IMG/VR virus record: IMGVR_UViG_3300017788_000218 | Coordinates: 1-20,908 of that record | Length of the DNA stretch: 20,908 nt | DNA from: a virus | Strand: one strand, 5' to 3' | Shown: positions 1,990 to 20,908 of the stretch, piece after piece | How positions within the stretch are numbered: the first letter of the stretch is position 1 | Layout of the letters: the number at the start of each line of letters is the position of its first letter | Program-made: the position numbers and the translations under genes | The notes under the pieces: generated by a model | Told to the model about the DNA's origin: nothing | What the model saw: the letters and a program-made list of their open reading frames with translations, nothing else | Databases searched by the model: none

Positions 1990-1996
1990 TATTTAT
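1990..1996 (-). promoter_or_regulatory. T4-like late promoter motif (ATAAATA)
   Basis: On the minus strand the sequence reads GGATAAATATAA, close to the T4 late promoter element TATAAATA. It lies about 20 bases before the ATG at 1970. The TAA stop of the upstream 1115-residue gene (1993-1995) is part of the motif. Promoter activity is inferred. Confidence 0.55.
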
Positions 1997-4900
1997 CCGC
2001 CCAGTGCAATGGAATATGCAATTGCGTTTACATTTGTCTGTGTATTGTTTGTATCTACATAAGATTTTACCGCTGCTTCGGTGGGGACTGCTGCGTTCGA
2101 ATTACCGCTAAAGGTAATATCTGATGAAAATTCATTAATAATTTCGCCTAGTTGAGCACCAATCGCTCCTAGTCTTAAACTAGTCAGACCACTAAGATCA
2201 AATGCGCTGGCATTTAATGTTGCCTTACCAGTTGCTTGATCAACTTTAAAATAATCACCAACTCTAAAATTACCATCTTGATCAGTGGTTACATAATAAA
2301 CACGACCCGGATAGGTCTCGATAACTTCATTGGGTTGTGATGCTGCCTGACTAGGAATGCCTGGGTAATTAGTTGTACTAATTCCGCCAGTGCCTATACT
2401 TAAGAAATCATGCCCAGTTAGTCTAACTGTGCTGAATCTATATCTTAATTCTATTGCAGAAGCATCAGCACTTGCCGTTAATTTTTCTAATGTTGTAAGT
2501 ATTATCGCATAACCTGCGGGTTTATAACCGCTAATTCCTGCAGAATAATCAACTACGGTTTGTATAATATATGGATTTGCATCTCCTGCGATAGTAATAC
2601 TTCCTCCTGGACGAGGTTGTGCAGTAATTCCAGATATAACTAACACATATCCTTTTTGACCCGTCACTCCACCTGCAGCAATAACCGCTGTAACTCCAGA
2701 CCCATTAGAAATCGTTTCGCCTGCTTGAAATGTATTAGATACTGCTTTGTAATAAACTCTACTAACACCTTCTTGGACATTTAAAACTGTACCAGTAGCA
2801 CCAGAAGTCGCTCCTGTTATTGTTTGGCCTGCACTAAAAGATCCACCGAGTATACTTTGATATGTGATAAGGCCGCCATATAAAGCCCCAGTGACCGGAG
2901 TCTCTTGATCATCATATCCTTCTGACGATGATCCATAAGTTCCATAACTGTTATTGCCGTTTAATGCACGTATTTGGCCGCCGTCTGATGATGCATAACC
3001 AAATACACAATAATAAGTAAACACCGAAACTAATTCTGCTTTAGCAGCATGTCTAACCCAAACTCCAACACCTCCATCATTAATACAAGTAAGGTTACTT
3101 AATACCATAGATTTGTTACCGGTATTATGAACACCTCCATCGATTAATGCAGCGATACCTGCAGTTGAAAATGTTGTGACATCTTGTATATATGGACTCT
3201 TAGTAGTAACTGGACTGTCAGGATTCAATGAAAAGAATACTCCGCCGATAGTGGCAGCTTCGATGCTGGTTGGAGTTCCGACACTCTTGACAAATCCGTT
3301 CATTCCAGTGCAATTTAAATCTTTTACCATTGATGCATTACTCATCAAAAACATGGTTGATCTACTATTGAGCGTAGATCCGTCTGTGCTTATTCCTGCC
3401 GCGGCTGTTACAGTTGTGGTTCTTACACCATCTCCCACAATAGCAACATTAGCAGGTACTATGATTGGTAATTGTTCATTATAGGTACCACTTTTAACAT
3501 AAATTGTAGCAGGGCCTGTTACTTGTGTACAGGCATATCTAATAGATGCAAATGCACGATTCACAGTTCTTCCATTATTACTATTGTTACCTTCTGGCGT
3601 AACATAGTAAACATTAGCTGTTTGATTATTGTTTTCGTAGCTGGGAATTCCGGCAGAAGAAACAATCAGCATCTGTCCATTAGTTCCGATAGGCAATCTG
3701 GCCACAGCGCCCACAGAGTTTCTAAAGTATGTGTCCCCAGTATTGGTTAAAACAGGACCCAAGTCTCCAGTCTGTGCTACTAATTGCCATGATGCAGGTG
3801 AAGTAACAGGATCTTGTCCTATATTATCGCTGACTACTGAAATATAAGAACTTTGCAGATATGAAACGACATCCTCTAATTCATACTCTGTATTTGAGTC
3901 CCAAGGACCCATCCATTTCATTCCTGCAACCAGTAGTTCCCAATAGGTAGAATTTGGCGGCTCGATATTAGAAGCATTGTTTGATGTATGCCTTAGTATA
4001 CAAAGGTATGCTCTTCCTCCATATCTCACAACCTCGCCCGGACGATATTCTGTAGTATCTGCATATGCTCCGGCAAATCTTAGTCCGTCGACAAATTTGG
4101 TCCAGTATGTTGCATTTGTTGGTAATTCACTGCTAGTAGTTAAAATGTTTATATATACATGACCGCCGTATCTGACCAAGTCTCCTGCTACATATGCTTG
4201 AGCCGGAGAAGAACTCCAAACTCCCTGAAATTGAAATCCTTTGGCAAAGAGGTCCCATTTAGTATTGTCTGACGGATTTTGAGATGTTGCAACGTCAACT
4301 TTGGCCGCGTAAATGCTACCCCCATAGTCGACTAATTCTCCGGGCTTATATGTACTTCCCGAACTGTATGTGCCGGCATATGTGTAACCTTTAACTAATA
4401 CCTCCCAAAAAGTTGCATTAGTTGGTGCGTTACCTGTGGTTGTCTGTAAAGATCTATATTGATAGCCACCGTACTGTACAATTTCACCGATATTATAAGT
4501 TGTGCCGCCAGCATATGTTCCGGAAGGTTTCAATCCATAATTTAAAACTTCCCAGAAAGTAGTATCGCTAGGAGCATTGCCGGTCGAATCTTGTTTAGCT
4601 ACGTATGTGTAACCGCCAAAGGAAACAATATCTCCTTTTCTATATGCAGTTGCACCGCTATATTCGCCTCTAAATTGTATGCCTGTGGTAATAGGAGTCC
4701 AATATGTAGGATCAGTTGGAAGATTTCCTGTAGTTGACAATACAGCCACATATGAATTTGAACCGTAAGTTACAACGTCGCCTGGCTGGTACAAAGTTGC
4801 TCCGTTGTATGCACCTTCGAATTGTAAACCGGATGCAAACAGAGACCAATTAGCGGGCTCAAATGTCGATATGCTTGTATGATGCGTAGTACAAATATAA

Positions 4901-5340
4901 AGTTGTCCGCCATAACTAACAACATCATTTATTTTGTATCTGGTTGTGCTGGACCACGAACCTGCAAATGCGATACCGTCAACTAAGATTTCCCAATTGG
5001 CAGAGTTTTGTTCTAATCCTAGAGCAGCGGTGGCCGCAGATGTATGACCATTGATACAAATATATGAACGACCGCCATATCTAACAACGTCACTAATTTT
5101 ATAGTATGTGCTAGTTGCCCATGCTTGTGCCCATTGAATACCGTCGTTCATTATTTGCCATCTATTAGCAGCTAGATCAGTATAAAAACCTCCGGCTACC
5201 GTAGCTGAAGAAGTATGACTGGCTATACAGACATAGGACTTGCCGCCGTATCTTATGATATCATCTCTTACGTATGCGGTAGAAACTGCCCATGTATTTT
5301 TCCATACAAAACGCAATCTACCTAATTTAAACTCTGCCAT
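1993..5340 (-). CDS. fibre/spike-like protein with ten CBM5/12-like repeats and a beta-helix domain
   Basis: This is a 1115-residue protein starting at ATG 5340, with GAGGATT as ribosome-binding site. Residues 11-525 hold ten tandem repeats of about 49-58 residues. The pattern is W/Y-x(5-6)-Y-x(2)-GD-x-V-x-YGG-x-x-Y, then a Trp near the end of each unit, which matches the aromatic scaffold of CBM5/12 (chitin-binding type) modules. Residues about 575-790 begin NVYYVTPEGNNSNNG and contain TIYVKSGTYNEQLPI and IVGDGVRTTTV, typical of a pectate-lyase-like right-handed beta-helix in phage fibres and spikes. The C-terminal part (VYYVTTDQDGNFRVGDYF onward) resembles C-termini of cyanophage virion proteins. 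No catalytic residues are assigned. The likely role is host-surface glycan binding as a fibre or spike. This is an inference from domain layout; the polysaccharide is unknown. Confidence 0.85.
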   Translation of the reverse strand: MAEFKLGRLRFVWKNTWAVSTAYVRDDIIRYGGKSYVCIASHTSSATVAGGFYTDLAANRWQIMNDGIQWAQAWATSTYYKISDVVRYGGRSYICINGHTSAATAALGLEQNSANWEILVDGIAFAGSWSSTTRYKINDVVSYGGQLYICTTHHTSISTFEPANWSLFASGLQFEGAYNGATLYQPGDVVTYGSNSYVAVLSTTGNLPTDPTYWTPITTGIQFRGEYSGATAYRKGDIVSFGGYTYVAKQDSTGNAPSDTTFWEVLNYGLKPSGTYAGGTTYNIGEIVQYGGYQYRSLQTTTGNAPTNATFWEVLVKGYTYAGTYSSGSTYKPGELVDYGGSIYAAKVDVATSQNPSDNTKWDLFAKGFQFQGVWSSSPAQAYVAGDLVRYGGHVYINILTTSSELPTNATYWTKFVDGLRFAGAYADTTEYRPGEVVRYGGRAYLCILRHTSNNASNIEPPNSTYWELLVAGMKWMGPWDSNTEYELEDVVSYLQSSYISVVSDNIGQDPVTSPASWQLVAQTGDLGPVLTNTGDTYFRNSVGAVARLPIGTNGQMLIVSSAGIPSYENNNQTANVYYVTPEGNNSNNGRTVNRAFASIRYACTQVTGPATIYVKSGTYNEQLPIIVPANVAIVGDGVRTTTVTAAAGISTDGSTLNSRSTMFLMSNASMVKDLNCTGMNGFVKSVGTPTSIEAATIGGVFFSLNPDSPVTTKSPYIQDVTTFSTAGIAALIDGGVHNTGNKSMVLSNLTCINDGGVGVWVRHAAKAELVSVFTYYCVFGYASSDGGQIRALNGNNSYGTYGSSSEGYDDQETPVTGALYGGLITYQSILGGSFSAGQTITGATSGATGTVLNVQEGVSRVYYKAVSNTFQAGETISNGSGVTAVIAAGGVTGQKGYVLVISGITAQPRPGGSITIAGDANPYIIQTVVDYSAGISGYKPAGYAIILTTLEKLTASADASAIELRYRFSTVRLTGHDFLSIGTGGISTTNYPGIPSQAASQPNEVIETYPGRVYYVTTDQDGNFRVGDYFKVDQATGKATLNASAFDLSGLTSLRLGAIGAQLGEIINEFSSDITFSGNSNAAVPTEAAVKSYVDTNNTQTNVNAIAYSIALGG
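3766..5310 (-). repeat. ten tandem CBM5/12-like protein repeats
   Basis: This region encodes residues 11-525 of the fibre-like protein. Approximate unit boundaries are residues 11-68, 69-123, 124-172, 173-221, 222-270, 271-319, 320-369, 370-420, 421-474 and 475-525. Most units carry a GD/GE-x-V-x-Y/F-GG core, but unit 10 has lost the GG (YLQSSY). Units 4-7 are the most regular at 49-50 residues. Units 1, 2 and 9 carry longer loops before the final Trp. Confidence 0.8.
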
Positions 5341-12177: not shown

Positions 12178-13347
12178 TTAGCTAAACTTAACGTTTCCGC
12201 TATTGATGTCAACTTTTCCTAGATAATCAGCTGCATTACCTAGAGAAGAAGCAACGTTTGTTAACTCAACATAACCGTATCTGGTCATGAAGCTAACAAC
12301 TGGCTCAAACGTCGATGGATCAAGAACAACACCGCTGCTCATCAATGGAATATATGGGCAGTAGAATGCTGGTGCGTCAGATTCGCTAGAACCTTTGTAA
12401 CCAATTAGAACTGCTGTGTTATCAGCAGCATAACCATCAACATAAACACGCATTGCGCTGTTCAATGTACCAACAAACTTGGTGTTTGTAGGTGCTTCGA
12501 ATGTGCCTTCTGTTGTTCTTGCGAAAGCAGAAGTTGTAGCACTCTGAAGAATTGTTAGTGCAAATGGGCTAACAACTGCGTAGTTACCAGCACCACGACG
12601 TGTACGCTGAGCGATCAAGTTAGCAACACGGTTGATTTGAACAGCAAGAGCAGCATGCTCGTCGCCAACAAATGTAGCAGTACCAGATACAGCAGCCTGG
12701 TTGTATGTTTCAGTTGCCGATCCAGCCAATGTGCGTAGAGATTGTAGAACCTCTTGATCGATTTCAGCTGTGATTTCTTGTGCAAGAGCAGCCATGATTT
12801 CTGCTTCGATGTCAATGCCTTGTTGGGCTTGTGCATCTTGTGCAGCCTCAAATGTCCAACGAGCAGACAATTTACGTGTCTTAGCTTCGACTGTTTGCTT
12901 GAGGATCTGGATGCTCATTCTGCGTCCAGCAACGCCTTCTAGTGCAGCAGTTGATGCTGGTTTACCATTTGGATCAGTACCTGTACCGGAGTAGCTAGTA
13001 GCGATCTTGAATGGGCTAAATGCCTCCTCACCTGCAGTGATGTTGTCGTTAGCATCGCTGTAACGAACACGCAATGTATGGATTTGTCCAACTGGTCCAG
13101 TCATTGGCTGAACACCAACTAATTCATTAGCGATGACCGTAGGCATCACACGTCTGATCACTGGAAGGATCACACGATTTAGGGTTGCAACGTTACCGGC
13201 AGAAGTAGCACCAGCAGTGGCACTCTCAGACAAATACTTGCGGGTATTTTCTAAAGTAGTGGCCATTACTGAACGACGAGTTCCTTGTAGGCCTTCTAAT
13301 AGTGCCTCTTTGGTTTCCTGCCAGCGTGACTCGAGTAGTTCTGACAT
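12178..13347 (-). CDS. gp23: major capsid protein gp23
   Basis: This 389-residue protein is the T4-type major head protein, which forms the hexameric capsid lattice. AAGGAG lies at the ideal distance before the ATG. Family marks include NRVILPVIRRVMP (57-69), GVQPMTGPVGQI (78-89), EAKTRKLSARWTFEAAQD with a long helix after it (about 165-205), RVYVDGYA and GYKG in the C-terminal half, and PVVSFMTRYGY near the end. The first 41 residues look like a helical propeptide ending in L-S-E (39-41), which fits the L/I-x-E site cut by the gp21 protease; cutting there would leave about 348 residues. It is much shorter than T4 gp23 (521 residues). The gene follows gp22 by 11 bases and is followed by a strong terminator. 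Confidence 0.97.
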   Translation of the reverse strand: MSELLESRWQETKEALLEGLQGTRRSVMATTLENTRKYLSESATAGATSAGNVATLNRVILPVIRRVMPTVIANELVGVQPMTGPVGQIHTLRVRYSDANDNITAGEEAFSPFKIATSYSGTGTDPNGKPASTAALEGVAGRRMSIQILKQTVEAKTRKLSARWTFEAAQDAQAQQGIDIEAEIMAALAQEITAEIDQEVLQSLRTLAGSATETYNQAAVSGTATFVGDEHAALAVQINRVANLIAQRTRRGAGNYAVVSPFALTILQSATTSAFARTTEGTFEAPTNTKFVGTLNSAMRVYVDGYAADNTAVLIGYKGSSESDAPAFYCPYIPLMSSGVVLDPSTFEPVVSFMTRYGYVELTNVASSLGNAADYLGKVDINSGNVKFS

Positions 13348-13358
13348 ATTAGTTCTCC

Positions 13359-14447
13359 TTAAACTTTAAGTCCCGCAAGCTTGCGGATTGTGAAAATTTC
13401 AGCGCCTTTTTCCCCGCTGACTGGTTGTGCCTGTTTATCGCCTGTAATTTCTTTGCCTTCTACTAGTGCCTTCTTTTTTGGAGCTTCGCCGGCCATTACA
13501 GCTGGAAGATACTTATCGTACGCTCCTCTTAACTTATCGGTTGCTACTGATTCTAGCAACTCATTCATTACTGTTTTCTTGTCGCCGCCAAGTGGCCCTA
13601 AAAGTTCACTCATAATTTCCTTTCGGGTTGCGAGATTTCGTGCAATACGAATTTCTCTTTCCTTGCTTTCGACGATCTTTTGATGCTCTGCAACAATTTT
13701 TGCAGCCTCTTCAAGTTCAACTTCTTTCTGCTGAACTACTTTTAATAGTTTTGCAGTTTCAGATTTTTCGTTGAGATGGCTTGCAGCATATTCGCTAGCA
13801 AAACTTTCAAAAATTCTACGACCGAAGTCATTTTTACGTGCAGATTCGATGTCTTCTTTCAGTTGACCAATCTCAGTACGCAGTGTTTTTTCAACTGCTT
13901 CTTTGACTAATTCTGCTGAACGAGAAACAAATTGCTTTTTAACCTGATCAAATTTAGCTTTGCTTTCGCGAACTAATTTAACTTTGGTTTCTGCTAGATC
14001 TTTCTTATCGGTGTGGAACTCTGCTATTTCTTTGGCTAGAGCGTCAACAATGAAAGATTCTAGTGTCGCAACATTGTCTGCTACACGCTTGCGATCTTCG
14101 TGAAGTTCTGATAATTCATTTTTAAGTTTCTGTAGAACGAATGATTCCATTTTGGCAGCATCGTCTTTCATTTTCTTAACATACTTGGCTTTTGCTTCGA
14201 TAAGACCTTGACGATCTTCAGCCAGTTCAGATAGCTCAGCCTGTAAACGATCTTCCAACATCTTTTCAACTGCTTCTACCATTGTTGTTTTATCGTGTTC
14301 ATACTTCTGAGCAAATTCTTCACGCAGTTCTGCGGTGACTTGATCTCGGTTTTCTTGAATCTTGGATTGCCAAGCTGTTTCAATTTCCGATTTCATTTCT
14401 TCGGAAATCACATTGTTTTCAAAAAGTTGTTTTACAAAATCTAGCAT
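13359..14447 (-). CDS. gp22: prohead core scaffold protein gp22
   Basis: This 362-residue protein begins MLDFVKQLFENNVISEEM and has AGGAG before the ATG. Nearly the whole length from about residue 20 to 275 is highly charged and has heptad-like helix patterns (for example KYVKKMKDDAAKMESFVLQ and QKEVELEEAAKIVAEHQKI), as expected of a coiled-coil scaffold. The C-terminus ends FTIRKLAGLKV. In T4, gp22 forms the inner prohead core and is destroyed by the gp21 protease before DNA packaging. Its place between gp21 and gp23 is the conserved T4 order. It is longer than T4 gp22 (269 residues). Its identity rests on position, size and composition rather than on a signature motif. Confidence 0.9.
   Translation of the reverse strand: MLDFVKQLFENNVISEEMKSEIETAWQSKIQENRDQVTAELREEFAQKYEHDKTTMVEAVEKMLEDRLQAELSELAEDRQGLIEAKAKYVKKMKDDAAKMESFVLQKLKNELSELHEDRKRVADNVATLESFIVDALAKEIAEFHTDKKDLAETKVKLVRESKAKFDQVKKQFVSRSAELVKEAVEKTLRTEIGQLKEDIESARKNDFGRRIFESFASEYAASHLNEKSETAKLLKVVQQKEVELEEAAKIVAEHQKIVESKEREIRIARNLATRKEIMSELLGPLGGDKKTVMNELLESVATDKLRGAYDKYLPAVMAGEAPKKKALVEGKEITGDKQAQPVSGEKGAEIFTIRKLAGLKV
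13373..13386. repeat. 14-base perfect palindrome at the gp22/gp23 junction
   Basis: CCGCAAGCTTGCGG lies in the last codons of gp22 (encoding within IRKLAG), 26 bases upstream of the gp23 ATG and just before its ribosome-binding site. It could form a small RNA hairpin or cruciform. It may also simply reflect the codons of a conserved C-terminus. Confidence 0.4.
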
Positions 14448-14462
14448 GTGATTCTCCTACTG

Positions 14463-15095
14463 TTATTTGAGTCCCAAGATAATCTTCTTGAGACTTTCTG
14501 CTATGTATTTCTGTGCCTTTGGATCGCCTTGAACTTCCCTTGCTATATTAAAAGATCTATAACCGCCTGTTTGATTCATAATGTGTTCGTAAACTGGTGT
14601 AGGGTAAGCACCGGGAGCGGATGGTTGAGCTACAATGTCAACCGTGATAATTTCAAAATCACTTACTTTTCCGCTGCCGTCTTCTGCAACGTTACCGGAA
14701 CCTCTGCTTGATACGCCTAGTTTGACTCCGCTCTCCAACATGGTTGAAATTAGCTGTCCCATAGGAGTTGGTAGAATCTTTAATTTTCCATAACCATTTG
14801 GACCATCCATCCACATTCTTGTTAACATGTGGCTGACCCGATCCAAATTAATGCGTAGATCCGCAGGATGATCAACTTCCCCTAGCACTGAGTATCCACC
14901 GGCTATCTGTTCATTAACGGTTTTGACAGCCCGACCGATTTCGGAAACAGGATAAATTCTCTGATTTGCATTCTTAATGTCGCCCTGGATGCAGATGCCA
15001 TTAAGATGCAGAGACTTTTTTCCAGCTTCTTCGACAGATTCGAGAACTAGACCCGCCTGATCAAAACTCAGATGCTCACTAAGGTAATTTTTCAC
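14463..15095 (-). CDS. gp21: prohead maturation protease gp21
   Basis: This 210-residue protein starts with GTG at 15093-15095. An in-frame TAG directly precedes it, and GGAG lies about 9 bases upstream, so the start is well supported. It is a T4-type prohead serine protease of the herpesvirus-assemblin-like fold. Visible marks are NQRIYP (44-49), the histidine in GEVDHP (His76), the serine in GVSSRG (Ser129 or Ser130) and the later D-x-V-x-x-PSAP box (153-161), in the same order as in T4 gp21. It is expected to assemble inside the prohead, activate itself, digest gp22 and core proteins, and trim gp23. Genes on both sides are its expected substrates. Length is close to T4 gp21 (212 residues). 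Confidence 0.96.
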   Translation of the reverse strand: MKNYLSEHLSFDQAGLVLESVEEAGKKSLHLNGICIQGDIKNANQRIYPVSEIGRAVKTVNEQIAGGYSVLGEVDHPADLRINLDRVSHMLTRMWMDGPNGYGKLKILPTPMGQLISTMLESGVKLGVSSRGSGNVAEDGSGKVSDFEIITVDIVAQPSAPGAYPTPVYEHIMNQTGGYRSFNIAREVQGDPKAQKYIAESLKKIILGLK

Positions 15096-15108: not shown

Positions 15109-15912
15109 TTACTTGTTACGAAACAAACTTGTTGAGTTTGTTCCGCCTTGTTCTGCTGCGCCTTTCTTTTCAGCGCCATGTCCTGGCTCTTTGGTACTAA
15201 ATGCACCACCTGCTTTGCCTCCAGGAACATTAATGTTACCGGTATTCATCTGTTGTGGTTTATTATTTGCTAAACCGCCTGCGGTTCCTTTATCTGAACC
15301 TTCGCCGCCTTTTACGATATTAGCAGTTGTACCGCCCATATCATTCTTTCCTGCTACCGGAGTTTTTGTGTTTGCGCCTGCTGCTTCGCCCGCGCCTTTC
15401 TTTTCGGCACCATGACCTGCTGGAACTTTTTCTACATATTCGCGCACTGTTGCCATTTCTGGTTCAAATGCATCTTTCATTTTCATGTCTGGCATGTCGC
15501 CCATGTCATCGCCGCCCATGTCATCGCCGCCAACTTCTGCTGCCAGCTCGTCAAATTTTGCCATTAATTCATCAAAAGCATCTACCACATCTTGTTTAGT
15601 AGCTGGTTCATCTGACCTTTCTTCGCCTTCTTCGTCGCCTTCTTCTCCCTTGTCTTCAAGATCTCCCATTAGATCGTCGGTAGGGTCGGCTTCTTCGTCA
15701 TCGTCTGCTTCAATAACTTCAAAATTTTCTTCTACTTCTTCGTCCTCTTCCTCTTCCTCATCGGAAGATTCTTCGATTTCGGTTTCGATCAATTCTTCAT
15801 AAATTTCACGAGATTTTGCTACTACGTACTCATGAAAAAGCTCTTCGGCTTTTGCTTGATCGTCATTAACTAGGTGCTCGAGCATCTGCTCAAGTGTGGT
15901 TTTATCTGCCAT
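15109..15912 (-). CDS. very acidic prohead core-like protein, 267 aa
   Basis: This 267-residue protein begins MADKTTLEQMLEHLVNDDQ, with AAGGAGAT before the ATG. Residues 1-42 are helical. Residues 43-103 are an extreme Asp/Glu tract. Residues 104-165 are helical again, with a GGDDMGGDDMGDM stretch. Residues 165-267 are Gly-rich and low in complexity, with GHGAEKKGA repeated at 166-174 and 244-252. It sits directly upstream of gp21, where T4 and its relatives place the small prohead core proteins gp67 and gp68. Such proteins are acidic core components cut up by gp21. I think this is a functional equivalent, but sequence identity to gp67 or gp68 cannot be shown by eye. A late-promoter-like string TTAAATAAAT lies 35-50 bases upstream. 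Confidence 0.8.
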   Translation of the reverse strand: MADKTTLEQMLEHLVNDDQAKAEELFHEYVVAKSREIYEELIETEIEESSDEEEEEDEEVEENFEVIEADDDEEADPTDDLMGDLEDKGEEGDEEGEERSDEPATKQDVVDAFDELMAKFDELAAEVGGDDMGGDDMGDMPDMKMKDAFEPEMATVREYVEKVPAGHGAEKKGAGEAAGANTKTPVAGKNDMGGTTANIVKGGEGSDKGTAGGLANNKPQQMNTGNINVPGGKAGGAFSTKEPGHGAEKKGAAEQGGTNSTSLFRNK

Positions 15913-16001: not shown

Positions 16002-16625
16002 TTAACTTTTTTGAAAAGTTATGTTAAATCTTGCTGCGAAATCATTATAATTTATATTTCTGTAATTATTTATTCCCATTGTAAAACAAGGAGGGGTCAT
16101 AAATTTTTTACCCACGACTCTATAGAACATGGTGTCTTTATATTCTCTAAAAACTTTTTCTGTTTGACTTACCCAATTTCCAAAAAATGTCGGAACTTCG
16201 CTGCTTTTCTTATAGTTAAAAGTATCTGCATAAACATTATTAAATTTGCCGTCAACACCTTCAAAGTCAAAACCTAAAATGAATATTTCTTTATGTCCAA
16301 ACTTTGCAGCTAACCACAAGGCTGTGGGTCCGGAACTCCAGCCTTTGTGGGTATCAAAAAAATTAATATAAGGAGTATCAATAATTCCTTTATTAGGATT
16401 AGTCCAAACCGTATGATTTTTATGATATCCTGATTCGATGATTTCGTTGGCCATTTTAACATCCACTGCCACTAAATGATCTACAGATGTCTCTCGATAT
16501 AATGCATTACATCCGTAGAGATACCCGTGAGATTTTAAATCTTCAACTTGTATATGTAATCTACTTTTGCCGTTACCTAGTACGAAGGCAGACTTACTGG
16601 GCTGGTTCTGCGGGTGGTTGGCCAT
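16002..16625 (-). CDS. DUF115/sialyltransferase-like Rossmann protein inside head module
   Basis: This gene encodes 207 residues from ATG 16625. A TTG at 16640 would add five residues. It overlaps the end of the 80-residue gene by 32 bases in another frame. Residues 12-21 read SAFVLGNGKS, a glycine-rich loop after a beta-strand. It is followed by YGCNALYRE (37-45), DHLVAVDVKM (49-58) and SSGPTALWLAAKFG with IFILGFDF (97-121). This order of a G-(N/S)-G-x-S loop, a C/V-N box, a strand with VAVD, and SGxxAL-x-A...LGFDF is shared by DUF115/MptE-like proteins and resembles GT42-type sialyltransferases. No membrane segment or signal peptide is seen. It may act on a sugar or nucleotide substrate; the reaction is unknown. 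Its position between portal and core genes is unusual for an enzyme. Confidence 0.75.
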   Translation of the reverse strand: MANHPQNQPSKSAFVLGNGKSRLHIQVEDLKSHGYLYGCNALYRETSVDHLVAVDVKMANEIIESGYHKNHTVWTNPNKGIIDTPYINFFDTHKGWSSGPTALWLAAKFGHKEIFILGFDFEGVDGKFNNVYADTFNYKKSSEVPTFFGNWVSQTEKVFREYKDTMFYRVVGKKFMTPPCFTMGINNYRNINYNDFAARFNITFQKS

Positions 16626-16836
16626 ACATTTGTCTAACAAAGCCTAGTTCTGATTCTTTTTCGGCTTCATGGGCTTCACTCTGCATCCTTAACATGTTGA
16701 TTTGTCGTAAAGTTAGTTTAACTTTTCGAGTATCATCTCGATCTACTATTGAAATGTCGTTAGAAGATTCATATCTTCGATCGATACTATAATCACTGTT
16801 TTTATCGTTAAAATAAAAAAACTCTAATAATTTCAT
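16594..16836 (-). CDS. small protein downstream of the portal gene (gp67-like position), 80 aa
   Basis: This 80-residue protein begins MKLLEFFYFNDKNSDYSID. The middle holds a DDTRKVKLTLRQINMLRMQS segment and a charged helix EAHEAEKESELGFVRQMYG. The end is Pro/Ala/Gln-rich. Small proteins of this type, with a 'DDTRK-x-(K/R)-LTL' stretch, sit just after gp20 in T4-like marine phages as far as I recall, in the place of T4 gene 67, a prohead core protein. Equivalence is inferred from place and size only. No ribosome-binding site is visible. An ATAAATA motif lies only about 7 bases before the ATG, so a transcript started there would have almost no leader. Confidence 0.75.
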   Translation of the reverse strand: MKLLEFFYFNDKNSDYSIDRRYESSNDISIVDRDDTRKVKLTLRQINMLRMQSEAHEAEKESELGFVRQMYGQPPAEPAQ

Positions 16837-16843
16837 AGTCTAA

Positions 16844-16850
16844 TATTTAT
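16844..16850 (-). promoter_or_regulatory. T4-like late promoter motif (ATAAATA) after gp20
   Basis: The minus strand reads ATCGATAAATATTAGACTATG, with the start codon of the 80-residue gene at its end. The motif is 7 bases after the gp20 stop codon. It matches the T4 late element TATAAATA in 7 of 8 positions. The very short distance to the ATG is odd. Confidence 0.5.
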
Positions 16851-16857
16851 CGATATG

Positions 16858-18558
16858 TTATTGTGCAGGAGGAATTGAGTCATCGGTTGTTTCTGCTTCG
16901 GGTTCAGCAGGTGCTTCCATGCCCTCTGGAGCTTCTGCTGATTGGGCAGACATATCGGATTCTAATCCGCCCGGAGTGATTCCCATAGATCTCATATCGC
17001 TGGCGGCATCAATGTTTGATGTTAGTTTCGCTCCATTTTCTTCTTTCCACAAGCGCTCATTTTCTGTAATTTCCTCTTGGGTAAGTCCTAAGAATCTCTT
17101 AAGAGCGAACCGCTTAGATACATAAGGAACTTCCTGTAATGCGGCAAAACTTTGTATTCTGGCATTATCGAGTTCTGATTGACGATATGCGGCAAAGTTT
17201 TGAGGTGGATTAAATTTTAATTCAAAAAGGCTATTATCGATATTAATGCCTTGTTTGTGCATCCAGAGCTTAAATTCTAGATCAAATTCTTCGATCATTA
17301 AACTTTGTAATCTCTTGCAATACTCATTAAAACGCAATTCTTGAATGTATGCTGTTCCTACTTTTCCGTCAGTGAATGCCATCTGGCTGTCGTCTGGTCC
17401 TGTCGGCAAATAACTGCTAGGAATACGCAGAGCGCGGAATAATTTGTTTGTGAAATATTTTAAATCGTCGATCTCACCGAGGTTAGTACCGCCGGGCAAT
17501 GTTTCAACTTTTGATCCGCGACCTTCTGCTGTTTGTGGGAAAAAATAATCTTCATTGATACTTAACGGATTATAACTAGCATCAATTACTGATGTCCCAC
17601 CGCCTGTTGAACTAGGAATCCTACGCTGATGTATTTCGTTTTTAACTCGTTCAACAAATCCCATAGCCATGTGTGCTGGCATATTACCTACATCGATATA
17701 GAAAATTCTGCGCTCAGGAGCACGTTGTATACGATAGATAATAATGGCATCTTCAAGCAATTCTTTCTGCTTGTAGACTTTGAATACTGATTCTAATAAG
17801 CTGTTTCCAAAAGGATAGTTATTATCTAAACCCTCACTTAGACTAATGTGTATGACATTTTTTGCATTTATCGCCACTTCGTTTACTTGTGTCGAAAACC
17901 GAGTTCCTGTTGCTTGCGGGGTGGTTCCTACCATACCTCGCCCTAAGGCGCCACCGCTAACATAACTGGCCGTGCCTTGGGGACTGGTATGTGTGTTTGG
18001 ATGTATAGTTGTTGCCACAAGTTCTTTAAAATTAAAATTAAAGTCTTGGATCACATACTGCTCAGGCTCTTTACCTTCACTTTCATTTACAATTACCTTG
18101 CTTACTTTTGCAGGATCAACGTAATACCATTTTAAAGTTTCTGGATCTTTGACAAAAAAGCAATCACCGTATTTGAATGTATTTCTTACTATTTTAAATA
18201 CTCTATTTTCAAATTGCTGCGTTTTATTCCACTTTTGTAAACTCTCTTTTAATATCTTAACTTCAGTAGCGGTCGGTTGACCTTTAAAAAATATCTGAAA
18301 TGCTGTGCTATTTTCTTTATTTTTTTGGCTACAAAATTCTGCAAGGATATCAAGAGCAGCATTAATTTCGCTGTCCATATCCATGGTGTTATATTGCATA
18401 TAACGCTCAACACGATTAGGAGTACCGGCATAAACATCGGGTAGATAATTTGAATAGTTAGTTCTAGCAGGACCAGGTTTGCCGCCATTACCTAGAGGAC
18501 TAAATTGGCCTCTGTTGTTTTCTATTTTAACAGGCGTGAAATACTTTTTCCAAGACAT
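16858..18558 (-). CDS. gp20: portal vertex protein gp20
   Basis: This 566-residue protein begins MSWKKYFTPVKIENNRGQF. It is the T4-type portal, a dodecameric ring at one capsid vertex through which DNA is packaged and to which the tail joins. Marks include YNTMDMDSEINAALDILAEF (56-75), FKYGDCFFV (128-136), YPFGNSLLE (248-256), the strongly conserved IQRAPERRIFYIDVGN (277-292), and EGRGSKVETLPGGTNLGEIDD (345-365). The C-terminal 50 residues are Ala/Pro/Glu-rich. It starts 6 bases after the tape-measure-like gene; a GGGGG stretch about 13 bases upstream is the only ribosome-binding candidate. Its length is close to that of T4 gp20 (524) and cyanophage portals. The T4 order gp20, core, gp21, gp22, gp23 follows. 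Confidence 0.97.
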   Translation of the reverse strand: MSWKKYFTPVKIENNRGQFSPLGNGGKPGPARTNYSNYLPDVYAGTPNRVERYMQYNTMDMDSEINAALDILAEFCSQKNKENSTAFQIFFKGQPTATEVKILKESLQKWNKTQQFENRVFKIVRNTFKYGDCFFVKDPETLKWYYVDPAKVSKVIVNESEGKEPEQYVIQDFNFNFKELVATTIHPNTHTSPQGTASYVSGGALGRGMVGTTPQATGTRFSTQVNEVAINAKNVIHISLSEGLDNNYPFGNSLLESVFKVYKQKELLEDAIIIYRIQRAPERRIFYIDVGNMPAHMAMGFVERVKNEIHQRRIPSSTGGGTSVIDASYNPLSINEDYFFPQTAEGRGSKVETLPGGTNLGEIDDLKYFTNKLFRALRIPSSYLPTGPDDSQMAFTDGKVGTAYIQELRFNEYCKRLQSLMIEEFDLEFKLWMHKQGINIDNSLFELKFNPPQNFAAYRQSELDNARIQSFAALQEVPYVSKRFALKRFLGLTQEEITENERLWKEENGAKLTSNIDAASDMRSMGITPGGLESDMSAQSAEAPEGMEAPAEPEAETTDDSIPPAQ

Positions 18559-18564
18559 TTAATG

Positions 18565-20908
18565 TTATGCCCCCATTACCATTCCGGGAGATTGGAAAAC
18601 ATCATTTCCTAGACTACGCTGTACCGCTAATTGTCTATCGTTGAGGTCTCGCACACCCTTGTTTATATGTATAAGTTGATCCATCTTCGTATTTAAGTTA
18701 GCCAGCAGAGTTTCTGCAGATTCTTGGGGTTTGATCTGCTGTCTTTCTTGTTGTTGTCTTTGTTCAGCTTCTTTTTCTGCATTAGCTCTTGCTTCAGCTT
18801 CACGGGTCGCTTGTTGCTCAATTTCTTGTCTAGTGGGTTCAGTTCTAGCTGTGGCACTTCCATAATGTTGTTTATGAGCGTATTCAGCAACTGCTTCGGG
18901 GCTCATGTTTCCTAAATCTACGGGCCCAGTAGCTGATTGTGATGCCGTCGCTCCACCGCTTGCTCCGCCACCTCCTCCGCCACCTCCTCCGCCACCTCCT
19001 CCGCCACCTCCTCCGCCACCTCCCGAGAATGTTGGCATGCTAATATTTGGAAGAGCAAATGCCTTACCAAATTCACCCCTTTCTAACGCCTTTCGTTCAT
19101 CTTCTTTTTCTCTGGCTCTACGAGCATCTTCGGCCCTGTTTCGTTCTCTGTTTGCGGCCATATCATCTCGCATTTTCCTCGCTAAATTTGCTCTTCCTTC
19201 TAATAGCTCAGTTCTTTCTGCCTCTAACGCTGCTTTTTCTTCTGGTGTGGCACTCTCTAAAAAAGGTAAAAAATCTTTAAGTCCATACCATAATTTTTTC
19301 AAATTTAAACCAAGTTCTTGTATATAGCTCCATAAAAACTTAAATCCATCACCGACTACTCCCATATCAACCCCTAATTTTCTTGCATATTCTTTTATGC
19401 CGACAAAAACAGCAGTCAGCACACCAACGATCGCTATAAGTTTAATCATCGGTAAGGCCATAGCCATATATTTGACTAGATTTGCTATAAGTGCCGGGAT
19501 AAGACTTAAAAATGCCGGTATTACCTTAAAAGCAATAACCGATCCTACTGCTGCTAACACAGGCAACCAATTATCTTGTAAAAATTGTTTGACATGCAAC
19601 AATGCCGGAAGAACGTATTCTCGAATTACTCCCCCAAGGTAAGTAAACACCGGAACTAGCATTGTGTAGGCTACACCGGCTGCTTCGATCAGTCCCTTGA
19701 CTAACCATTCTAATGTAGGAATAACGACTTTTAATATTACATCAGCAAGGAAAACAACCGCAGGAACGATATAGTTAGTAAAGATTGGTATAATAAAATC
19801 TACCATCTTTTGCAGGAGTCCCATCATCTGATTTAGCGCACCTATGTTAGAAGCTAACGTCATTTGTATTCCGTTAGTCAATGCCGCTAATTGCTGCTTC
19901 ATTTCTTCCATTGCTGCTGCCTGACCGTCGGTATTATTAGTAGCATTATTTTGTGCCGCCGCTCCTTGAACTAGTGCATTTTTGCCTATTTGTGCAGCAG
20001 CGGTAAATTGTTTTGTCTGGGTCGCGAAATCAGCACTGAATCTTCCGATATCTTTGTATTGTAATTGCGCAGCTTGACCTTCTCTTCGCAGAGTTTCGTT
20101 TAACCGATTCCTTTCTTCTAAAGATATCTGTTCTCCTCTCTGAGTTTTGGCTGCAAAATCTGCCATCATTGCTGCCGATTCCGGCATCATACTCATGAAT
20201 TTTCTACTTTCTTCTGTTGTAGCAGACCCCGTGGCTATGATGTCTTTGGCTACATTTTGTAACGGACCAGGCAAACCGATAACAGTATTTCTAACACTTG
20301 CTGCCGCTTTTTCATCTAATCCAGCAATGGCTGCTTGATATTGAGCATCATTCATAAGTTCTTCCATTTGCTGTTGTTTTGTACTTCTTTCCTCACCAGT
20401 TACTTTGGCCATTAAATCTAATTCTTTGAGATATTTTTTGCTTCCTTCGATTAATTGGGCGTTAGTCATGTTTTGATTTCTTCCGCCTAACATAACTACT
20501 TTTGTATAATTGGCTAAACCCTTGTTAACTTCTGCAGTAGAAAACCCCAAAGCATATAAATCTTTGCTACTAGTTCTTAGACCCCTGGAAATTTCTGCAA
20601 ATCTTTTCGCACCTGTTTCTGTATTTCCTCCTAATAGTCGTAATGCAGGAGCACTTTCTTTCATTAATTGAGCATAATCTTTCATTGTCATACCGGCAGC
20701 AGAAGCAGCTCCAGCAAATTGACTAATACTTCCTGCAAATGTTGCGCCCGATTGGGATGCTAATTGAAAAGCACCTGTAGTTTTTTCTACAGCCGAGGCA
20801 ATTGCACCGAATACACCTGCTAATAATCCGCCAACAACAGGGATCATATTCATAGCACCAGCTGCCCCTGATAAACTATCATCTAGATTGGCCAATGCGT
20901 TAGTTGCA
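18565..20908 (-). CDS. tape-measure-like protein, partial at 5' end
   Basis: At least 780 residues are present. The frame is open to the window edge (upstream codons Ala-Thr-Asn-Ala before the TTG at 20893-20895), so the true start is probably outside the window. Residues about 1-340 are helical, rich in Ala, Gln and Met, and include IPVVGGLLAGVFGAI and QSGATFAGSISQFAGAAS. Roughly residues 345-505 contain several long hydrophobic helices (for example DFIIPIFTNYIVPAVVFL and LIAIVGVLTAVFVGI). A charged coil (EAERTELLEGRANLARKMR), a 20-glycine tract and a Gln/Glu/Arg-rich helical tail follow. This layout is typical of tail tape-measure proteins and related tail proteins with membrane-active segments. 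T4 gp29 lies elsewhere, so this could instead be a different tail or injected protein. The end is 6 bases before gp20. Confidence 0.75.
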   Translation of the reverse strand, partial: ATNALANLDDSLSGAAGAMNMIPVVGGLLAGVFGAIASAVEKTTGAFQLASQSGATFAGSISQFAGAASAAGMTMKDYAQLMKESAPALRLLGGNTETGAKRFAEISRGLRTSSKDLYALGFSTAEVNKGLANYTKVVMLGGRNQNMTNAQLIEGSKKYLKELDLMAKVTGEERSTKQQQMEELMNDAQYQAAIAGLDEKAAASVRNTVIGLPGPLQNVAKDIIATGSATTEESRKFMSMMPESAAMMADFAAKTQRGEQISLEERNRLNETLRREGQAAQLQYKDIGRFSADFATQTKQFTAAAQIGKNALVQGAAAQNNATNNTDGQAAAMEEMKQQLAALTNGIQMTLASNIGALNQMMGLLQKMVDFIIPIFTNYIVPAVVFLADVILKVVIPTLEWLVKGLIEAAGVAYTMLVPVFTYLGGVIREYVLPALLHVKQFLQDNWLPVLAAVGSVIAFKVIPAFLSLIPALIANLVKYMAMALPMIKLIAIVGVLTAVFVGIKEYARKLGVDMGVVGDGFKFLWSYIQELGLNLKKLWYGLKDFLPFLESATPEEKAALEAERTELLEGRANLARKMRDDMAANRERNRAEDARRAREKEDERKALERGEFGKAFALPNISMPTFSGGGGGGGGGGGGGGGGGGGGASGGATASQSATGPVDLGNMSPEAVAEYAHKQHYGSATARTEPTRQEIEQQATREAEARANAEKEAEQRQQQERQQIKPQESAETLLANLNTKMDQLIHINKGVRDLNDRQLAVQRSLGNDVFQSPGMVMGA
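18964..19023 (-). repeat. 12-base tandem repeat, 5 exact copies, coding Gly20
   Basis: The plus-strand unit TCCGCCACCTCC is repeated five times without error. On the minus strand the unit reads GGAGGTGGCGGA and encodes four glycines, so the block encodes twenty. It is in frame and lies between the charged coil and the C-terminal helix of the tape-measure-like protein. A tract this regular is prone to copy-number change by slippage. Confidence 0.95.

Follow-up and report, generated by a model that had tools for sequence, protein, structure and literature searches.

The Maf glycosyltransferases of bacteria glycosylate flagellin subunits before these are assembled, and we propose them as the analogue for a comparable modification of a phage head protein. 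Maf enzymes accept both CMP-Neu5Ac and CMP-Kdo and modify Ser/Thr residues of flagellin (PMC11339370). The GT42 sialyltransferases employ a histidine as the catalytic base, i.e., His188 in Cst-II and His202 in Cst-I (PMC4202792). Mycobacteriophages encode glycosyltransferases that attach sugars to their own capsid and tail proteins (Freeman 2023, as cited in PMC12619734). That system, experimentally tested and from different phages, resembles the situation considered here in that a phage's own virion proteins receive sugars, whereas the protein described below is known from its sequence and predicted fold. Phage virion glycosylation is thus known; our search of the open-licence literature found no description of the present gene or of its head-operon position, and a GT42/Maf-fold gene in such a slot may not have been described before.

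The window analyzed here is a complete IMG/VR record, a virus fragment of 20,908 bases, the head module of which is listed in Table 1. On the minus strand, the gene order is gp20, the 80-aa gene, the 207-aa gene, the acidic core-like gene, gp21, the gp22-like gene, and gp23. The cultured phages with the most similar portals are the jumbo phages Phosso, PA5oct, and Atu_ph07, followed by the RaK2 group (~45 to 51% identity). A sequence-only reading of this DNA had pointed to the 207-aa gene as a DUF115/sialyltransferase-like Rossmann protein lodged in the prohead module, and its description of the ORF, the GNGKS and IFILGFDF motifs (residues 17 to 21 and 114 to 121), and the overlap with the upstream neighbor was borne out by the ORF coordinates and translation. 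An in-frame TTG is present at 16640, upstream of the ATG. A gene start that overlaps the stop of the upstream gene is also seen in 47 of 67 relatives. As to that neighbor, previously termed gp67-like, its position agrees with the name; the 80-aa protein matches only phrog_13986, of unstated function, so the label is a positional one. The ATAAATA at 16844 precedes the 80-aa gene and hence the pair, which is presumably cotranscribed.

Table 1. Features of the head module in the window
Feature	Position	Strand	Remarks
Major capsid protein (MCP) gp23	12178..13347	(-)	PF07068, 3e-99
gp22-like scaffold	13359..14447	(-)	phrog_10922
Prohead protease gp21	14463..15095	(-)	PF03420, 5e-23
Acidic core-like prohead-module protein	15109..15912	(-)	Counterpart by position of PA5oct and RaK2 virion structural protein
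Gene with predicted GT42/DUF115 fold	16002..16625	(-)	207 aa, ATG at 16625
32-base overlap of 207-aa gene and upstream gene	16594..16625	(-)	ORF coordinates
80-aa protein	16594..16836	(-)	phrog_13986, no function assigned; counterpart by position of PA5oct virion structural protein
ATAAATA, T4-late-promoter-like	16844..16850	(-)	Directly 5' of 80-aa gene
Portal protein gp20	16858..18558	(-)	PF07230, 2.1e-109

ATAAATA occurs seven times in the window (1990, 5366, 7720, 9245, 11832, 16067, and 16844), in each case on the coding strand and in most cases immediately 5' of a gene, a count not above chance (expected 9.3). Elsewhere in the window, a minus-strand gene at 1993 to 5340 encodes a 1,115-aa tail-fibre-like protein. 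In it, six family 5/12 carbohydrate-binding modules (PF02839, E = 5e-51) precede a pectinesterase/pectate-lyase-like region, and the protein may be a sugar-binding adhesin. A 776-aa protein (18565 to 20895), in the same place as a tape-measure-like structural gene of RaK2, contains >20 consecutive glycines, the coding sequence of which is a near-perfect short repeat (18950 to 19023, minus strand) and possibly a slippage site.

The position of the 207-aa gene was surveyed in 80 IMG/VR loci picked solely by the similarity of their portal to that of the window. A homologue occupied the same slot in 75 of them, the module was intact and the slot empty in two (L054 and L063), and the contig ended before the slot in three (L022, L060, and L076); the loci being chosen by similarity, these counts are not population frequencies. 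A second set of loci around L063 added both carriers and noncarriers. Relatives were gathered by portal similarity and, separately, by homologue alignment, the latter giving at least 592 candidate IMG/VR stretches that encode a relative of the 207-aa protein. Each carrier tested had a single copy. The prohead-module location noticed in one contig is therefore a stable trait of a lineage and not an accident of that contig. The carriers make up a large set of uncultured, mostly very large aquatic T4-like phages. Five homologues were located in contigs of bacterial metagenome-assembled genomes (MAGs; L148 to L152), in bins assigned to Neomarinimicrobiota, SAR86, Rickettsiales, and Betaproteobacteria that carry a phage head module. 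A phage portal gene lies upstream in all five, so that we regard these as phage contigs and reject an origin from cellular genomes.

Where close pairs allowed measurement, dN/dS was about 0.02 to 0.10, indicative of purifying selection on the gene. Together with conservation in dozens of contigs, this shows that the 207-aa ORF is not a chance one. Distances between the 207-aa proteins followed those between the portals (r = 0.90; none of 2,000 permutations gave a value as high), so the gene has been largely inherited with the module. A FastTree phylogeny was built from 112 distinct portals, of which 80 belonged to carriers and 32 to noncarriers (four cultured outgroups among them); presence was clustered on it, with 8 changes versus a mean of 28 for shuffled labels. 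Several absences were nested within carriers (L054, L063, L258, L210 plus L213, and L219), a pattern which, with the deepest forks weakly supported, suggests that the gene was gained once or a few times and then lost repeatedly. In two contigs with no gene in the slot (356 and 328 kb), the rest of the contig held no copy either. In all, 34 loci lacked the gene with the module otherwise present; these included PA5oct and RaK2, whose genes for the portal, small, core, protease, and capsid proteins directly follow one another. According to the PA5oct record, its portal, small, core, and protease proteins have been detected in virions by mass spectrometry. The 207-aa protein is thus not a regular prohead component of the T4 gp67/gp68 type, one of the outcomes that would have spoken against the sequence-only reading. 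These clean, nested losses, which leave the remaining module genes in place, indicate that the gene is dispensable, and they contradict an essential core role.

AlphaFold2, supplied with an alignment of 53 homologues (A1), gave a confident model of the 207-aa protein, with a pLDDT of 89.5 and a pTM of 0.88. The predicted fold is glycosyltransferase-like, so that the other outcome named as refuting the sequence-only reading, a fold of neither Rossmann nor GT type, did not occur either. In Foldseek searches against the PDB, all seven matches with E < 1e-3 were chains of GT42 sialyltransferases (1.6e-4, to 1ro7, to 8.6e-4), followed by an MptE-type HPPK. By VIA-align, the best match was the Maf glycosyltransferase 5mu5 (PF01973), with Z = 13.2 and an rmsd of 4.3 over 178 aligned residues, i.e., nearly the whole model. 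Next came Cst-I (Z = 11.2, rmsd 4.0, 185 aligned), the MptE-type HPPK 8sd5 (Z = 10.9, rmsd 3.3, 143 aligned), and Cst-II (Z = 10.8, rmsd 3.8, 171 aligned), the GT42 sialyltransferases overall scoring 10 to 11; SteA (Z = 9.3) and thiamin pyrophosphokinase (Z = 8.8) followed. HPPK and the thiamin pyrophosphokinases share the core Rossmann-like fold (Z 7 to 11) but align over fewer residues (117 to 143). Similar predicted folds are found in BFVD for other uncultured phages (best TM, 0.70). On this model, assignment to the GT42/DUF115/Maf fold superfamily is secure. The Z scores of Maf, Cst-I, and HPPK are close, so the fold alone leaves the chemistry undecided.

Profile searches placed the protein less sharply. 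Its only Pfam match was MptE-like PF01973 (E = 0.003; 17.7 bits versus a cut-off of 34.6), with the sequence support limited to the G-x-D region, and 16 of the 53 relatives gave a weak match to the same family. PF06002 (CST-I) was not matched by the window protein; it was by 21 of the 53 relatives, below the gathering cut-off (best E, 7e-4). The best PDB sequence matches of the A1 profile were GT42 enzymes (E, 0.006 to 0.05), and hhalign to a bacterial GT42-like protein, itself matching Cst-II at 1.5e-18, gave E = 1.4e-4 at a probability of 52%, with GNGxS and CN aligned to each other in the two. The superfamily resemblance proposed from the sequence therefore held at the level of fold, including that of the Maf/HPPK central domain, while formal membership of GT42 or DUF115 did not. 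The protein is likewise distinct from the Maf glycosyltransferases proper: Maf-like proteins measure ~630 to 900 aa with extra domains and act on flagellin, whereas the present protein, encoded among phage head genes, consists of one domain of 207 aa, with a putative head protein as acceptor and sequence similarity below the Pfam cut-off. Phmmer matches to designed ankyrin proteins were dismissed as chance hits on a G-x-T-AL-AA stretch.

Thirty-nine columns of A1 are invariant, comprising GNGxSR (17 to 22), CNxxYR (39 to 44), VD (54 to 55), GWSSGPT (95 to 101), GFD (118 to 120), NN (129 to 130), and GNWxxQT (149 to 155), with VDxxM, GWSSGPTxL, NY, and TxxGNWxxQT as wider motif forms. The invariant polar residues are N18, N40, D55, S97, S98, D120, and N150. 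The lysine of GNGKS is not kept among the 53 homologues, so that this loop is better described as GNGxSR and its identification as a P-loop is rejected. G17, N18, and G19 together with C39 and N40 align to GT42, with which the protein has the GNG loop and CN motif in common. The aspartate of VD pairs, in a weak profile alignment, with the I-D motif of Maf-like proteins; Asn51 of Cst-II presumably lies at about the same point, where the alignment is uncertain. GT42 differs in having a longer stretch between CN and G-x-D and in its base histidine. No invariant histidine was found in the 53 homologues (best column, 41 of 53), leaving His188/His202 with no invariant equivalent. The invariant GNW falls in the region of the GT42 histidine; the exact pairing is uncertain because a PF06002 survey of 398 genomes of one phylum yielded a single member and hence no full GT42 profile that would place the residue facing His188. 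GNG and CN, then, are retained and the catalytic histidine is not: either the enzyme would use another base (e.g., D55 or D120) or it would not be a GT42-type catalyst. The strict conservation of the motifs, which would line a ligand pocket by analogy with the related families, argues for a function at that site.

The family is already in databases as phrog_30607, with no function assigned there; this profile matches the 207-aa protein at E = 1.6e-31 and also all 53 relatives. True sequence homologues occur in HTVC008M (AGE60341) and Mosig (QOI69104), with 33 to 38% identity to HTVC008M. They have most of the same invariants, GNGxSR, CNxxYR, AVD, GW, NN, and NW being kept in the diverged pelagiphage homologues, but are ~60 to 75 aa longer and lie outside the head module, near gp32, gp59, and UvsY/UvsW, some beside carbamoyltransferase or phytanoyl-CoA dioxygenase genes. 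The Pelagibacter phage HTVC008M encodes three such members (L196:752-1309, L196:4180-4983, and L197:27489-28319), all annotated as hypothetical.

The 207-aa protein is very likely an enzyme of some kind and probably a glycosyltransferase; a head protein as its acceptor is put forward tentatively. We tentatively favor the reading that it is a probably active member of the GT42/DUF115/Maf superfamily with an accessory role, a glycosyltransferase that would modify a head protein with a host donor. In late expression, it would be translated together with the 80-aa head-module protein. The sugar would come from an activated donor that the host makes, most plausibly one that is CMP-linked and acidic, such as CMP-Kdo or a CMP-nonulosonic acid. 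The acceptor would be made simultaneously; most simply, it would be a head protein, sugared before the prohead assembles or while it does so. Most Gram-negative hosts make CMP-Kdo. The sialic acid synthase NeuB was not recognized in any of 17 relatives. For CMP-sugar synthetase (PF02348), 24 contigs gave no match above the cut-off and one below it; these contigs are incomplete. A phage-encoded donor pathway is on these grounds weakly rejected, and the donor would be host-made. In a 400-kb relative (L270, the contig of L228), CTP_transf_3 was matched below threshold (E = 1e-4); this may be a nucleotidyltransferase. GT42 enzymes transfer CMP-linked acidic sugars to glycans, and Maf transfers them to Ser/Thr of a structural protein that self-assembles. 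The fold common to GT42 and Maf, taken with the fixed slot among head genes, makes head-protein glycosylation the simplest account, and we count in its favor that both flanking proteins correspond by position to PA5oct virion proteins; position alone does not prove the acceptor. In its most specific form, a minimal single-domain Maf-like enzyme with GNWxxQT but no base histidine, O-glycosylating prohead or capsid subunits with host CMP-Kdo or CMP-nonulosonic acid in an aquatic jumbo T4-like lineage, we consider the proposal unlikely.

Two observations count against a head protein as acceptor: the HTVC008M (three copies) and Mosig homologues outside head modules, and the Ser/Thr/Tyr/Asn/Lys residues of the portal, small, core, protease, gp22, and MCP proteins, which showed no signal of co-loss with the gene in seven sister comparisons of low power (forward counts similar to reverse). 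Both favor a glycosyltransferase of the same superfamily that would act on a host glycan or another nonvirion substrate, its gene having been inserted once and kept for good late-operon expression. We regard this as somewhat unlikely, given that the lineage copy has kept to one slot across wide divergence and that the overlap between its start and the stop of the upstream gene recurs in most relatives. Also counting against the favored reading are the missing invariant histidine, the sub-cut-off Pfam matches, the HPPK/thiamin pyrophosphokinase/SteA folds at Z 9 to 11, and the negative searches for NeuB and for a CMP-sugar synthetase above cut-off. A further candidate, from the HPPK (MptE)/thiamin pyrophosphokinase branch, is a diphosphokinase or another enzyme that uses nucleotides, with a small molecule as substrate. 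It would fit the fold scores of that branch, the MptE-like match as the sole Pfam hit, and the invariant D55 and D120, which could bind metal. It is distinctly unlikely, since the GNG...CN arrangement is of GT42 type, GT42 leads by Foldseek E value and Maf by VIA Z, and a metabolic enzyme would have no need of the head operon. The embedding among head genes, the related fold of SteA, a cell division regulator, and the absent base histidine would also suit a noncatalytic prohead or scaffold component reusing the fold; we hold this very unlikely because the invariants are polar motifs located in loops, as is typical of the ligand pocket in this fold, and because the gene is cleanly lost from intact modules and absent from PA5oct and RaK2.

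To our knowledge, the mycobacteriophage glycosyltransferases are unrelated to the 207-aa protein. If the reading of a head-modifying glycosyltransferase is true, the glycosyltransferase superfamily would have a very small, single-domain member whose catalytic site is altered. Whether or not head proteins are sugared, the gene is a clear lineage marker, and the natural gain/loss pairs make its function testable. Its fixed slot among head genes hints at self-decoration of virions with sugars: widespread large aquatic phages would modify their capsid at assembly, as bacteria do flagellin, and sugared head proteins would have a bearing on virion stability, the sticking of particles, and recognition by hosts and grazers.
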